From contig JAAYCX010000040.1 of NCBI GenBank assembly GCA_012729555.1, forward strand, positions 1 through 64,000: a stretch of DNA of 64,000 nt, written 5' to 3'. Within the stretch, counting starts at the first letter, position 1. Each line of letters starts with the position of its first letter. Source of the stretch: Acidobacteriota bacterium. GTDB lineage: Bacteria; Acidobacteriota; UBA6911. The notes beneath the pieces were generated by a model that was given only the letters and a program-made list of their open reading frames with translations, searched no databases and was not told where the DNA came from. A program made the translations under genes and the position numbers. Shown here one piece after another: positions 37,667-43,555 of the stretch.

Positions 37667-37969
37667 ATGCAGAGCGAGGATGAAAAACCGGCGGCGCCGA
37701 GGGTCAAGGTGACCGGCCTGAACGACAACCTGGATTTTCTGGGCACGCCGCTGCACGTCCAGACCGAGAGCCTGCAGCTGCCCGAAGCCCGCATCGTGAC
37801 CCAGGTCTTCAGCAAGGGCCGCATCCTCTTCTCCCGGAAATCGGACATCCCCCCGGAGTTCCTCCTGTCGGGCGATCCCGAACCGGTGCGCGCCCTCATG
37901 CGCTCCCAGCACTCGAGCGTCCTGGGCGAGATCGCCGACAAACAGAAGCGGATCCAGGCGAAATCCTGA
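37667..37969 (+). CDS. Small protein of unknown function upstream of a GNAT gene
   Basis: The 100-residue product has a basic, charged C-terminus and a beta-rich core (VKVTGLNDNLDFLGTPLHVQTESL). No signal or membrane segment is seen and no family is recognised. It is followed 2 nt later by the GNAT gene, which indicates a two-gene operon. An upstream TATGAT (37576-37581) precedes a GGCGCC palindrome at 37582-37595 and may be its -10 element. Confidence 0.6.
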   Translation: MQSEDEKPAAPRVKVTGLNDNLDFLGTPLHVQTESLQLPEARIVTQVFSKGRILFSRKSDIPPEFLLSGDPEPVRALMRSQHSSVLGEIADKQKRIQAKS

Positions 37970-39030: not shown

Positions 39031-40800
39031 ATGAACACCAAGATCCGGACCTCGCTGATCGCGATTTCCATCACGCTCGGCCTCACGCTGCTCAAGTTCC
39101 TTTTCTATTTCCTGTCGGGAAGCATCGCGGTCCTGTCGGAAGCGTGGCACAGCTTCAGCGACATCACCACGTCGGTGCTGGTTCTCTTCGCCCTCTGGAG
39201 GAGTGCGTCCCTGGCCCGGCGCCCCCCCCAGCCCGCCGCCGAAGGCGGGCGGGCCGACGGGCCGGCGCGCCCCCTTGGTTTTTGGCGATTCATGGGCCGG
39301 CTCTTCGGCGAACAGATCGAGAGCACCAGTTCCCTCCTGATCGGCGTCTTCCTCACCTTCATCTCCGTCTCCCTGATCCTCAACGCCTGGTCCACGAAGA
39401 TCGTCCTCATCCAGCGGCCGCTGCTGACCGGGATCCTGTTTTTGATCCTTTCGGCCGGCTCCTATTTTCTTTTCAGGTTTCTTTCGGACGTGGGGCGCGC
39501 CGAGAACTCCGCGGCCCTGATCTCCGACGGGCTGCATTCCAAGGGGGACATGGCATGCTCCTCCCTGGCCGGCCTGTCGCTCATCCTCTACCATTTCGGC
39601 ATCAACATCGACCGCTGGGTGAGCCTCGCCATCGCGCTGCTGATCCTCTCTTTCGGGGTGGAAATCCTCTTCAACGTCTTCGCCCACCTCTACGGGAAGC
39701 GCCGGGACTTCCGGATGCGCTACCGCTTCCTCGAGATCCTGGGCATCGGGTTCGAAAAAGAGACCTATCTCCGCCTCTTCCGGTGGATCGACCGGAAATA
39801 CAGCGTCGACATCCTCAGGTCGACCCTGGTCCGGTACGCCCGCCTGTCGCTCCGGTACTCAGGCTACGCCCTCGCCGGCGCCGCCCTGCTGGCCCTCCTG
39901 TACGACATGCGCTTCCAGCTCGAGATGGACGAGCAGGCCGTCGTCGAACGGTTCGGAAAACCCCGGACGACGGAGCCGCTCGGGCCGGGCCTCCATTTCA
40001 AGCTGCCGCGGCCCATCGACCGGGTCCGGGTGGTCCAGACCGGCCGGATCCAGGAGCTGTTCCTCGGGAACGTGTCCCAGGAGGAAGAGCGGCCCCTGAT
40101 CTGGGGAAACGAGCACGGCGAGGAGGTCCACTTCCTCTCGGGCGACAACAACTTCCTCAACCCCTACATCACCCTCCACTACCGGATCCGGAACCTGTAC
40201 GCCTATTTCTACAACATCGAGAATCCGACGGTGCTGATGGAAAACATCTCCTACAAGATCCTGCAGGATCTCTTCACCGCCAAGCCCTTCTACGACATCG
40301 CCATCACCTACCGCCGGGAAATGGAATCGGCCGTGGCCACCGCCCTGCAGCAGAGACTCGACGCTCTCGATACCGGAATCGAGGTGGTCGCGGTCAACGT
40401 CAAGGACATTCACCCGCCGGTCATGATCTCCGACTCCTTTGAAAACGTGATCGCCTCCTACCAGAAGAAGGAGGAAACGATCAACCTCGCCCTGGAATAC
40501 CGGAACACCGAAATCCCCGCCTCCCGGGGGGAGGCCTACACCAACGTCAGCGACGCCCGGGCCTACGTCCAGGAAGAGGTGCTCAAGTCGCAGGCCGCGG
40601 TGGCCGGCTTCAGGGCGAAGTGGAGCGCCTACCGCAGCCACAAGCCCGTCATCCGCCAGGTGCTCTATTTCACCAGCATCGTGACCGCCCTCGGGGAGCG
40701 GGAAAAGATCCTCGTGGACCCCCGTACCGGGGAGCTGGATCTCTACCTGACTTCGGGGGCCGCCGCCCCCCTTCCCGGACCGGGCGGCACAGAGGAATGA
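39031..40800 (+). CDS. Fusion of a cation diffusion facilitator membrane domain with an HflK-like SPFH domain
   Basis: This 589-residue protein joins two unrelated modules. Residues 1 to about 220 are a CDF transporter core with six membrane segments. The metal site is complete: H40-x3-D44 in helix 2 (AWHSFSD) and H169-x3-D173 in helix 5 (DGLHSKGD), the HxxxD form typical of zinc carriers. No CDF cytoplasmic domain follows; instead a basic linker (about 222-275) leads to a seventh hydrophobic helix (about 276-291) and then an HflK-type SPFH/Band 7 domain (VVERFGKPRTTEPLGPGLHF) to residue 560. An even number of CDF helices would place the linker in the cytoplasm and the SPFH domain in the periplasm, as in HflK. 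The ATG has AAGGCGG upstream. Two further SPFH genes follow. Confidence 0.85.
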   Translation: MNTKIRTSLIAISITLGLTLLKFLFYFLSGSIAVLSEAWHSFSDITTSVLVLFALWRSASLARRPPQPAAEGGRADGPARPLGFWRFMGRLFGEQIESTSSLLIGVFLTFISVSLILNAWSTKIVLIQRPLLTGILFLILSAGSYFLFRFLSDVGRAENSAALISDGLHSKGDMACSSLAGLSLILYHFGINIDRWVSLAIALLILSFGVEILFNVFAHLYGKRRDFRMRYRFLEILGIGFEKETYLRLFRWIDRKYSVDILRSTLVRYARLSLRYSGYALAGAALLALLYDMRFQLEMDEQAVVERFGKPRTTEPLGPGLHFKLPRPIDRVRVVQTGRIQELFLGNVSQEEERPLIWGNEHGEEVHFLSGDNNFLNPYITLHYRIRNLYAYFYNIENPTVLMENISYKILQDLFTAKPFYDIAITYRREMESAVATALQQRLDALDTGIEVVAVNVKDIHPPVMISDSFENVIASYQKKEETINLALEYRNTEIPASRGEAYTNVSDARAYVQEEVLKSQAAVAGFRAKWSAYRSHKPVIRQVLYFTSIVTALGEREKILVDPRTGELDLYLTSGAAAPLPGPGGTEE

Positions 40801-40813
40801 GGTCAAGACAGGC

Positions 40814-41692
40814 ATGAAAAGAAACATCATCGTTCTCATAGCGTTGCTGCTGGCCGCCCTTTTCGCCTACGGGTCGTTCTTCACCGTCAACGAGGGGACG
40901 AGCGTCATCCTCACCCAGTGGGGGAAGCCGGTCAGGAACCTGGAGGCGGCCGGACTCTATGCCAAGTGGCCCTGGCAGAAGGTGAACGCGTTCGACAAGC
41001 GGATCAACTGTTTCGAAGCCCAGACCCTGCAGCTGCTGCTGAAGGACAAGAATCCGATCGTCGCCACCTGTTACGTGGCCTGGAAACTGCACGACCCGAA
41101 GCTCTTCTTCCAGTCGCTCAACAACGTCGACAACGCCCGGCTGAAGCTGGGGGACATGGTGAATTCCCAGCTCGGCATCATCGTCAGCGACTACGAGATC
41201 GACAAGATCATCAACACCGTGCCCGAACAGGTCAAACTGGGGGAAATCTACAGCCGCCTGCAGGCGGAGTCGGACACGCGCGCGCGGCAGAAGTACGGGA
41301 TCGAGATCACCGAGGTCGGCATGAAGAAGATCCTCTACCCCGCCCTCGTCAGCAACGCGGTCTACCAGAGGATGAAGGCGGAAAGAACCAAGGAGGCGGT
41401 GAAGTACATCGCCGAAGGGGAGGAGGAGGCGACCAGGATCCGGGCCAACACCGACCGGGAGGTCAAGGAGGTGCTGGCCACGGCCTACAAGGAGGCGGAG
41501 GAGATCCGGGGGGAGGGGGACCGGCAGGCGCTGAAGATCTACGCCGACGCCTACAGCAAGGACCCGGAGTTCTTCAAGTTCACGAAATCGCTGCAGGTCT
41601 ATTCCGAGATCATGGACAAGAACACCACCCTGGTTCTTTCGACCGATTCCGAGCTCTTCGAATACCTGAACTCGAGAAAGCTGGTCCGCTGA
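40814..41692 (+). CDS. hflC: HflC-like SPFH/Band 7 protein
   Basis: The 292-residue inner-membrane protein has an N-terminal signal anchor (IIVLIALLLAALFAYGSFF), an SPFH domain starting TVNEGTSVILTQWGKP and a long helical region with YPALVSNAVYQRMKAERTKEA and KYIAEGEEEATRIRA, the HflC hallmark. HflK and HflC build a large periplasmic cage around FtsH. It starts 13 nt after the CDF-SPFH gene and ends 4 nt before the next SPFH gene. No ftsH is in the window. Confidence 0.9.
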   Translation: MKRNIIVLIALLLAALFAYGSFFTVNEGTSVILTQWGKPVRNLEAAGLYAKWPWQKVNAFDKRINCFEAQTLQLLLKDKNPIVATCYVAWKLHDPKLFFQSLNNVDNARLKLGDMVNSQLGIIVSDYEIDKIINTVPEQVKLGEIYSRLQAESDTRARQKYGIEITEVGMKKILYPALVSNAVYQRMKAERTKEAVKYIAEGEEEATRIRANTDREVKEVLATAYKEAEEIRGEGDRQALKIYADAYSKDPEFFKFTKSLQVYSEIMDKNTTLVLSTDSELFEYLNSRKLVR

Positions 41693-41696
41693 CCGG

Positions 41697-42677
41697 ATGA
41701 GCGCACCCATGGAAAAGACGACGCTCCAGCACCTGGAATCGACGGCACGTGCGCTGCTGCGCCATTACGCCCTGGGGATAGGCGCCCTGCTGGCCGTCAT
41801 CTACCTCGGCTCGGGGTTTTACAAGATTTCGGAAAGCGAGATCGGGGTGGTGCAGCGCTTCGGGAAGGTGATCGACGGCAGCGTGGGGCCCGGCGCCCAT
41901 TACCGGATCCCCTGGCCCGTCGACAGGGTCACCAAGGTGCCGGTCAGGACGACGCACACCCTGGAAATCACCGACCTGTCCCTCAAGCAGAGTCCGGCCG
42001 CCGCCCGCCCCCAGGCGACGCAGCCCCTCTCGGCCTACTGCATCACCGGGGACAACAACATCGTCTTCATCGACTTCCTGATCCGCTACAACATCGTGGA
42101 ACCGGTCAAGTACCTCTTCATCCTCAACAGCGGCGAGGACTACCTCAGGCACATCGCCTCGGCCGCCGCCGTCCAGAGCCTGGCCACCAAAACGGTGGAC
42201 GACATCCTCACGGTGGGCAAAAAGAGCGTGGAGGTCTACCTGAAGGAGGAAATCCAGAAGCGGCTCGACCTGCACGACACCGGCCTGGGGGTCGGCGCCA
42301 TCGAGATCGGCGACGTCTCCCCCCACCGCGGGGTCCGCACCTTCTTCGAGCGCGTCATCAACGCCCAGATCCAGCAGCGGGAGGTGGTGAACAACGCCGA
42401 GTCCTACGCCAATGAAAACCTCCCCAGGGCCAAGGGGGAGGCGAGCCGGATCCTGGAGGAGGCCGAGGCCTACAAGTTCGACGTCGTCAGCCGGGCCGAG
42501 GGGGACGCCGACCGCTTCAAGAAGCAGTATGACGAATACCGCAAGGCCAAAACGGTGACCAGGCAGAGGCTCTACCTGGACTTCATCCAGCGGAAATTCC
42601 CCGAGCTGAAGAAAATCATCCTCGTCGACAACTCCGGCCGGCAGCGGGTCCTGAACCTGCGCATGCTGTCCAACTGA
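41697..42677 (+). CDS. hflK: HflK-like SPFH/Band 7 protein
   Basis: The 326-residue protein has a membrane segment near residues 22-40, the HflK-type start GVVQRFGKVIDGSVGPGAHY, the PVDRVTKVPVRTTHTLEI strand pair, and a helical tail with AKGEASRILEEAEAYKFDVV. Unlike E. coli HflK it lacks a long Gly/Pro-rich N-terminal tail. The order here is CDF-SPFH, hflC-like, hflK-like, with gaps of 13 and 4 nt, so three SPFH proteins are made together. Confidence 0.88.
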   Translation: MSAPMEKTTLQHLESTARALLRHYALGIGALLAVIYLGSGFYKISESEIGVVQRFGKVIDGSVGPGAHYRIPWPVDRVTKVPVRTTHTLEITDLSLKQSPAAARPQATQPLSAYCITGDNNIVFIDFLIRYNIVEPVKYLFILNSGEDYLRHIASAAAVQSLATKTVDDILTVGKKSVEVYLKEEIQKRLDLHDTGLGVGAIEIGDVSPHRGVRTFFERVINAQIQQREVVNNAESYANENLPRAKGEASRILEEAEAYKFDVVSRAEGDADRFKKQYDEYRKAKTVTRQRLYLDFIQRKFPELKKIILVDNSGRQRVLNLRMLSN

Positions 42678-42710: not shown

Positions 42711-43424
42711 CTACCGGTCCCTGGCGGCCAGGGCCGCCTCATAGAAATCGGAACGGATCACGTCCAGGTTGGACCCCTCCATGAGGGCGCGGCAGAGGCG
42801 CGCGTCCCCGTCGACCCAGACGAGCAGCGTCAGGCCGTCCTCGAATTCGATCCGGTAGTTTTTCAGCTCTATCTTTTTTCCGCCGCTCTCGACCATGTCG
42901 GCGTCAAGGGGGAACACCGAAACCCGTTCCACGGCGCCGCCCGGGAGGAGATAGGTCCGGAAGAACTGCTGCCCCCCCTTTCGGAGGTCGTAATGCCGGA
43001 TCCAGTAGTCGAGGGTATGAAAAGCCGTCGGGTTGAGCAGGAGCATGTCGGGCAGAAAGGGGGTCCTGGATTCCCCGGCGCCCCCTCCCGTCCTGAGGAT
43101 CTGCTCCCCTTCCAGTTTCATCTCGTACGAATTGTCCTCGCCGGACTCCTGAGCATAGGAGACGGGAAAACGCCCCTCTTTCGGAATCACCATCCGCGTC
43201 CGGATCACCCGTTTTTCACTCGAATTCGGGGGCGTCATCTCCTGCTCGGACAGGCACACCCTGTTCCCCCTCAGGTCGGTTTTTTCCGATACGACTTCCT
43301 TTCCGACCTGCCGGGTGCCCAGCAGAATGACGTAGGACTGGGAATAACTCTTAAAAAAATTGCACGCATTCACCCCGACCAGGCAGGCCAGGGCAAAAAC
43401 CACCCACAGCATTCGATTCTTCAT
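42711..43424 (-). CDS. Lipoprotein of unknown function
   Basis: The 237-residue product begins MKNRMLWVVFALACLVGVNAC, a lipoprotein signal with Cys 21 as probable acylated residue, so it should be membrane-anchored in the periplasm. The mature part is beta-rich and contains paired repeats of hydrophobic and charged strands (IRTRMVIPKEGRFPVSY, KNYRIEFEDGLTLLVWVDGD). No family is recognised. It faces the SPFH operon from the 3' side (convergent, 33-nt gap). Confidence 0.68.
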   Translation of the reverse strand: MKNRMLWVVFALACLVGVNACNFFKSYSQSYVILLGTRQVGKEVVSEKTDLRGNRVCLSEQEMTPPNSSEKRVIRTRMVIPKEGRFPVSYAQESGEDNSYEMKLEGEQILRTGGGAGESRTPFLPDMLLLNPTAFHTLDYWIRHYDLRKGGQQFFRTYLLPGGAVERVSVFPLDADMVESGGKKIELKNYRIEFEDGLTLLVWVDGDARLCRALMEGSNLDVIRSDFYEAALAARDR

Positions 43425-43429
43425 GTCAC

Positions 43430-43483
43430 AAAAAGCATCGGGGGGAGTCGATATGTCGTCCAAAGCCGACCTCGGCTCCCCCC
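43430..43483 (-). terminator. Probable terminator after the metallophosphatase gene
   Basis: On the minus strand a 7-bp G/C stem (43441-43447 with 43476-43482) enclosing a smaller hairpin is followed after a few bases by TTTTT. It lies between the metallophosphatase and the downstream lipoprotein gene. Confidence 0.5.
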
Positions 43484-43555
43484 GACCTTCTCCGGCAAGG
43501 GGACAGGGCCCCCCTGCTTCAAGTCCCATTCACAAACACCTGACGGGCCGGCCCT

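Follow-up and report, generated by a model that had tools for sequence, protein, structure and literature searches.

An SPFH operon carrying metal exporters of three families on one HflK-type subunit suggests an undescribed metal-export machine

An operon of three SPFH genes lies in a 64,000-nucleotide (nt) stretch of an Acidobacteriota genome (assembly GCA_012729555.1, contig JAAYCX010000040.1, positions 1 to 64,000; hereafter the window). Its first gene, K1, encodes a CDF metal exporter and an HflK-like SPFH part in a single chain; the second, C, an HflC-like subunit; and the third, K3, an HflK-like subunit that carries no transporter. Comparison of sequences across genomes demonstrates a conserved K1-C-K3 operon, three unrelated exporters carried on K1, intact motifs, and SPFH lineages that are separate and co-inherited. 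The genomic case for a pump-SPFH triple is strong, and we consider it probable (about 0.6) that the three genes together specify an SPFH complex for metal export, a specialised relative of the HflK/HflC cage with the exporter borne by one of its HflK-type subunits, K1. That K1 joins C and K3, and that the pumps ring a cage, we infer.

The three open reading frames (ORFs) lie on the same strand, separated by gaps of 13 nt (K1/C) and 4 nt (C/K3), and ORF prediction, Pfam and NCBIfam agree on the co-directional CDF-SPFH, HflC-like and HflK-like genes described in a first-pass annotation of the window. The ORF list places the K1 start 3 nt earlier than the ATG used here, at a TTG. Matches to Band_7 (PF01145) above the cut-off assign K1, C and K3 to the SPFH superfamily. 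C scores 200.1 bits on TIGR01932 (HflC) and K3 204.9 bits on TIGR01933 (HflK), above the NCBIfam equivalog cut-offs of 134.4 and 159.4, respectively; K1 reaches 150.7 bits on the HflK equivalog, whose cut-off is 159.4. Profiles built here for the K1, C and K3 types, which included the window’s own sequences, place the window genes in these types over the canonical ones, with 379 versus 266 bits for C (triple C versus canonical HflC) and 350 versus 260 bits for K3 (K3 versus canonical HflK). A sequencing artefact or frame error as the source of the fusion was ruled out by a 95% identical copy, by the low ratio of non-synonymous to synonymous substitution rates (dN/dS) relative to that copy (~0.20 for K1, ~0.11 for C and ~0.21 for K3), and by the same K1-C-K3 layout on a closed plasmid. 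Fused loci in many other genomes ruled out an oddity confined to the window genome.

Pump-fused SPFH genes were confirmed in 16 of 297 Acidobacteriota genomes, which were searched with K1 and the matching DNA then inspected; in one of the 16 (G290) the contig stops inside C. Outside these 16, seven genomes of one genus gave SPFH matches within open frames longer than 1000 residues. In the window’s family, the CDF form occurs in 4 of 15 genomes, all of the window’s genus, and a genome of another genus (G180) has a form fused to a P1B-type ATPase. A profile scan of 84,980 species genomes with five fused SPFH parts, from which the best 80 of 208 relatives were kept, was seeded with fused sequences and therefore yields no frequency. 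Pump-fused loci are found in records titled Acidobacteria, Abditibacteriales, Armatimonadetes, Zixibacteria, Eisenbacteria, Anaerolineales/Chloroflexi, Desulfobacula and Actinomycetota, and in alphaproteobacterial isolates of Allosediminivita, Aminobacter, Tianweitania, Chelativorans and Bradyrhizobium. Carriers that can be cultured include Chelativorans multitrophicus DSM 9103, Aminobacter aganoensis DSM 7051 and Allosediminivita pacifica DSM 29329.

Once repeated copies of a contig and short truncated copies are set aside, the set comprises 68 distinct fusions of SPFH and metal exporter: 39 with a CDF protein (window included), 24 with a P1B-type ATPase and 5 with an SO_0444/ArsP permease; many come from related species, and the counts are not independent events. 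C and K3 follow the fused gene in all 64 loci with complete sequence, which answers in the negative the concern that homologues might occur only as isolated genes; the other four (L072, L101, L127, L138) stop at a contig or locus end. All 36 unfused SPFH pairs of the same locus set are ordinary HflK-HflC. A further 15 loci have three SPFH genes and no detected pump: eight are ~3.9 kb copies without upstream sequence, two lie at contig ends (L110, L142), and five belong to a plasmid variant described below. Individual loci depart from the common layout. At L095:3190-3976, an unrelated ORF of ~137 residues lies between K1 and C. Upstream of the Bradyrhizobium permease triple lies one more C-type SPFH gene (L130:1466-2470 and L134:1522-2550), which scores 293 and 291 bits as triple C versus 239 and 236 bits as canonical HflC. 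One genome, G050, appears to carry two pump-SPFH triples (L151, G050:C31; L050, G050:C77) with different pumps, a P1B ATPase and an ArsP-like permease; its permease fusion, the sixth of its kind, is cut by a contig end and lies outside the five counted.

In Pfam and NCBIfam scans the exporter half is a CDF protein, a heavy-metal P-type ATPase (TIGR01525; 533-557 bits in the P1B fusions, cut-off 346) or an SO_0444 Cu/Zn efflux permease (NF033936; 356 and 385 bits, cut-off 300), and the remaining fusions were assigned to a pump type with profiles made from those identified in this way. Each family has motifs by which transport function is usually recognised. Both HxxxD motifs are present in 36 of the 39 CDF fusions; the exceptions lack one residue in transmembrane helix (TM) 5 (L099), lack one in TM2 (L127), or are truncated (L121). 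TGE, DKTGT, GDGxND and CPC are found together in 23 of 24 P1B fusions, the other one (L067) being truncated, and CSC and YxCA in all five permease fusions. The proposal in the first-pass annotation of a metal-homeostasis complex is strengthened, because two further unrelated exporter families, the P1B ATPase and the SO_0444 permease, occupy the pump slot of K1. Several P1B fusions have histidine-rich linkers; in L050 and L071 a His-rich stretch of ~50 residues separates the ATPase from the SPFH anchor and is a possible metal buffer. A histidine before PP in the SPFH domain was dropped as a K1 hallmark, being non-specific when counted. A tblastn search of plasmids with a whole P1B fusion returned no record at 80% query coverage, and the 40 matches listed were ordinary ATPases.

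The domain structure of K1 can be followed in profiles and in a model (Table 1). Cation_efflux (PF01545) matches residues 9-219 (E = 4e-17; 63 bits, cut-off 26.6), TIGR01297 scores 89.5 bits (cut-off 82.35), which assigns the protein to the CDF family, and Band_7 follows at residues 297-485 (E = 6e-19). An AlphaFold2 model, built from an alignment of 26 CDF-SPFH proteins, has a mean predicted local distance difference test score of 76.4 and a predicted template modelling score of 0.43, so that its domains are usable and their placement relative to each other is not. It contains six long helices (residues 3-29, 32-62, 82-121, 130-157, 161-188 and 194-220), from which a linker of low confidence leads to an anchor helix; the SPFH domain and its long helices follow. 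Foldseek finds a YiiP fold in one half and an HflK fold in the other. In VIA-align, the CDF half matches YiiP (8f6k_B) with Z 22.4 and a root-mean-square deviation (rmsd) of 2.4 over 194 aligned residues, spanning YiiP residues 8-210 only, that is, the membrane part. The SPFH half matches Escherichia coli HflK (7vhq_E) with Z 16.6 over 252 aligned residues and an rmsd of 33.1, which we put down to bending of the long helices. A C-terminal cytoplasmic dimerisation domain is typical of CDF proteins, although not universal; K1 gave no Pfam match to it at E 0.1, and the structural match stops at YiiP residue 210. The first metal-site motif (H40, D44) aligns with AHLLID in human ZnT8, at a sub-threshold E of 0.069; in the second, H169 is invariant and D173 nearly invariant among the 26 CDF-SPFH proteins. 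By analogy with CDF and HflK topology, the linker would be cytoplasmic, and by analogy with HflK the anchor, SPFH and long-helix part would be periplasmic.

Table 1. Coordinates in the window of the three genes and of the segments and motifs assigned to K1
Feature	Position	Strand	Description or basis
K1	39031..40800	+	CDF metal exporter fused to a transmembrane segment and HflK-like SPFH/coiled-coil part; 589 residues; ATG start
C	40814..41692	+	HflC-like SPFH subunit; 292 residues
K3	41697..42677	+	HflK-like SPFH subunit without transporter; 326 residues
CDF transmembrane domain of K1, residues 1-223	39031..39699	+	PF01545, model, YiiP match
Metal-site residues H40 and D44, TM2 HxxxD	39148..39162	+	motif
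Metal-site residues H169 and D173, TM5 HxxxD	39535..39549	+	motif
Linker, residues 224-276, CDF to SPFH anchor helix	39700..39858	+	low model confidence
Anchor helix (residues 259-292), SPFH domain and long helices (to residue 553)	39805..40689	+	PF01145, model, HflK match

The SPFH parts have a history distinct from that of the canonical cage. In a careful tree of K-type proteins, which retained 90 of 110 rows and omitted seven long- or odd-branch rows (including K1 and K3 of L039 and K1 of L045), the plasmid variant and truncated rows, canonical HflK forms one clade (100/98) apart from every K1 and K3, whatever the pump. K1 of P1B type (97/92), K1 of permease type (98/84) and K3 of P1B type (99/95) are clades in this tree, and K3 of permease type forms none. 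A quick tree of C proteins splits triple C from canonical HflC with support 99, and the P1B type is a clade there too. K1 and K3 each make one group, save for K1 of the window’s genus. By these trees, the proteins of the triples form a separate lineage with respect to canonical HflK and HflC. Within K1 the grouping mostly follows the pump, which makes an exchange of pumps on a conserved scaffold probable; the simplest history would be a single origin of the triple, in which K1 and K3 are paralogues, followed by at least two replacements of the K1 pump. Across 34 non-redundant loci, K1, C and K3 give correlated distances (0.88-0.89; none of 500 shuffles as high), as expected of a unit inherited whole; such a correlation is no proof of contact.

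Canonical HflK-HflC pairs can occur beside the triple. Eight of ten carrier genomes looked at (G012, G059, G089, G113, G184, G214, G238, G280) hold one elsewhere, a proportion that is no frequency since the ten regions were picked for a further K1-search match; in the other two, the region is a second triple (G050) or a stretch without an SPFH gene (G180). The pump triple is therefore an extra system in those eight genomes, and replacement of the FtsH modulator by the triple was ruled out for them. In the window genome, no canonical HflK-HflC pair was found among the eight Band_7 matches; the window proteins fall outside the canonical HflK (100/98) and HflC (99) clades and form three genes, K1-C-K3, rather than an hflK-hflC unit. 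The first-pass annotation correctly noted no FtsH gene near the operon (the genome’s single Peptidase_M41 match is on contig C15), an absence that is uninformative because the 10 kb surrounding E. coli hflK-hflC also hold no FtsH gene. Its idea of a third SPFH subunit bearing a transporter survives in that such a subunit is conserved in triples; a third type of ring position is less likely, because K1 is itself HflK-like and more likely shares HflK positions with K3.

The presence of FtsH in the window genome also bears on an alternative in which the exporter domain is a sensor or anchor and not a pump, reporting metal load to an HflK/C-type cage that releases or restrains FtsH. HflK and HflC act on FtsH (PMC12048511), and L099 and L127, which each lack one metal-site residue, also speak for this reading. 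We nevertheless regard a sensor as unlikely, given that transport motifs are kept in the three families in the numbers given above, that ATPase catalysis would be dispensable in a domain that only senses, and that a separate canonical pair is present in those eight carriers.

Metal handling is supported by the genomic setting at one site above all, a conjugative plasmid of Aquibium oceanicum on which the triple adjoins genes for PCu(A)C, SCO, Nramp and a P-type ATPase, a copper-resistance neighbourhood; a peptidyl-prolyl isomerase (PPIase) gene also adjoins this operon. Among 97 neighbour ORFs scanned across loci, seven encode PPIC-type isomerases and three trypsin-like proteins, and gyrase A and B domains were each found in four. 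PPIC-type isomerase genes adjoin CDF-type operons at L117:7956-10115, L145:7968-10142, L138:2700-4313 and L061:12137-13831, often with a two-component system upstream. Heavy-metal two-component regulators were rejected as a signature: at the Chloroflexi locus L117 such a family is the top match and yet scores below cut-off, and the systems in Alphaproteobacteria are EnvZ/OmpR-like. A DNA gyrase A gene lies directly upstream of the CDF-SPFH operon at L094:1791-4217, perhaps marking a fixed chromosomal place in an Eisenbacteria-related lineage. In the window, a gene convergent to the operon (42711-43529, minus strand) encodes a 272-residue protein, lipoprotein-like by eye, with no family over cut-off; its homologues (47-88% identity) adjoin the operon in three other carrier genomes of the genus. 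Upstream, a small gene on the plus strand (37667-37969) encodes a RomY N-terminal-like domain at 47.3 bits, just under the cut-off of 50.

Such neighbours could be read differently, with the SPFH part as a quality-control adaptor through which exporters damaged by metal are checked by FtsH or by proteases and chaperones of the periplasm, the gain being pump turnover and not clustering. The isomerase and trypsin-like genes, including the PPIase gene of Aquibium, would fit such a role, but the PPIase neighbours identified by locus stand beside CDF operons of Chloroflexi, Alphaproteobacteria and Desulfobacula and are not general, and the operon has no recurrent protease gene of its own; we judge an adaptor improbable. 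A neutral fusion, in which adjacent genes for an exporter and an SPFH protein became one and are passed on together without joint function, would agree with the patchy occurrence of CDF-SPFH in the window’s family, but is very unlikely, given that exporters of three unrelated families share one slot, that every complete locus, over many phyla, has C and K3, and that dN/dS is low.

In the metal-export complex that we favour, HflK positions would be filled by either K1 or K3, with C in every alternate place, and the cage would number ~24 subunits as in E. coli; several exporters would thereby be gathered in one ring and one membrane patch. Assembly of the ring would replace the missing CDF cytoplasmic dimerisation domain in bringing protomers together, and the even number of pump helices would put the SPFH part in the periplasm, with exported metal leaving into, or at the foot of, a periplasmic dome. 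The ratio of K1 to K3 would set pump density. For the window’s HD-HD CDF domain, Zn2+ is the likely metal by analogy with ZnT. Since the pump family changed while the scaffold stayed, the scaffold is probably of general benefit to metal export, and candidate benefits would be clustering, lipid environment or curvature, confined release, and protection from FtsH.

Several observations weigh against such a complex. K1 of the window’s genus, on a long branch, groups beside K3 and not with the other K1 proteins, although a topology with one K1 clade is not rejected (p = 0.415), and co-inherited neighbour genes correlate in their distances even without contact. No metal family was found by Pfam or NCBIfam among the scanned neighbours in the window (the upstream genes and 42711-43529), and neighbours elsewhere are mixed, with two-component systems below heavy-metal cut-offs, PPIases and gyrase genes. 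In five plasmid loci, from Paraburkholderia, Burkholderia, Klebsiella aerogenes and two Rhizobium, the product of the first SPFH gene begins with a multi-TM region of no recognised family, which was rejected as a CDF relative: no kinship was detected in the four compared (hhalign probability 0.1). The plasmid variant has a separate P-type ATPase gene downstream in its four annotated loci, the fifth record being unannotated; on conjugative plasmids of K. aerogenes and Burkholderia ubonensis, the operon reads multi-TM SPFH, HflC, SPFH and separate P-type ATPase (L062:5809-11535, L060:5176-11188).

More broadly, and tentatively, such loci might define a new class of metal-efflux machine, built as SPFH domes with an exchangeable, covalently attached pump on one of two K-type subunits, so that a ring of pumps would feed a shared periplasmic compartment; a genome could then hold more than one dome with different pumps, as the P1B-type and ArsP-type triples of G050 would illustrate. 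We found no description of a pump-SPFH fusion or of a triple SPFH operon in searches of 5.39 million open-access papers, and the presence of three unrelated kinds of pump in the same place of the triple suggests an undescribed metal-export machine. The triple bears on what SPFH cages may do beyond holding FtsH: with the cargo built into one subunit, and with three unrelated kinds of pump, bacteria allow a direct test of the idea that transport proteins are organised by SPFH rings. The triple also points to a metal-tolerance system hidden by annotation, as the Aquibium fusion, the only annotated pump-fusion record seen, is labelled merely ‘FtsH protease activity modulator HflK’. Conjugative plasmids carry the system or its variant.

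One close known relative is the HflK-HflC cage of E. coli, whose subunits form 24-subunit assemblies around FtsH (PMC12048511). The two systems share the SPFH fold, an N-terminal membrane anchor, and K- and C-type subunits encoded side by side; the triple differs in having three genes, with C between two K types and an exporter on one K, in its separate clades, and in its occurrence in genomes that have the canonical pair too. K1 shares with YiiP/FieF and ZnT the six-helix domain and HxxxD-type motifs, and differs from them in carrying an SPFH part in place of the C-terminal cytoplasmic dimerisation domain. The SO_0444 permease and P1B ATPase parts resemble their families above NCBIfam cut-offs and with motifs intact, and are set apart by their attachment to an HflK-like SPFH part and by the C and K3 genes that share their operon. 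Stomatin domes, which enclose AQP1 and UT-B, offer a parallel in an SPFH ring that keeps transport proteins in one membrane patch (PMC12407830); in these domes the cargo is separate and the ring is of stomatin alone, whereas in the triple the cargo would lie within one subunit of a predicted three-subunit ring.

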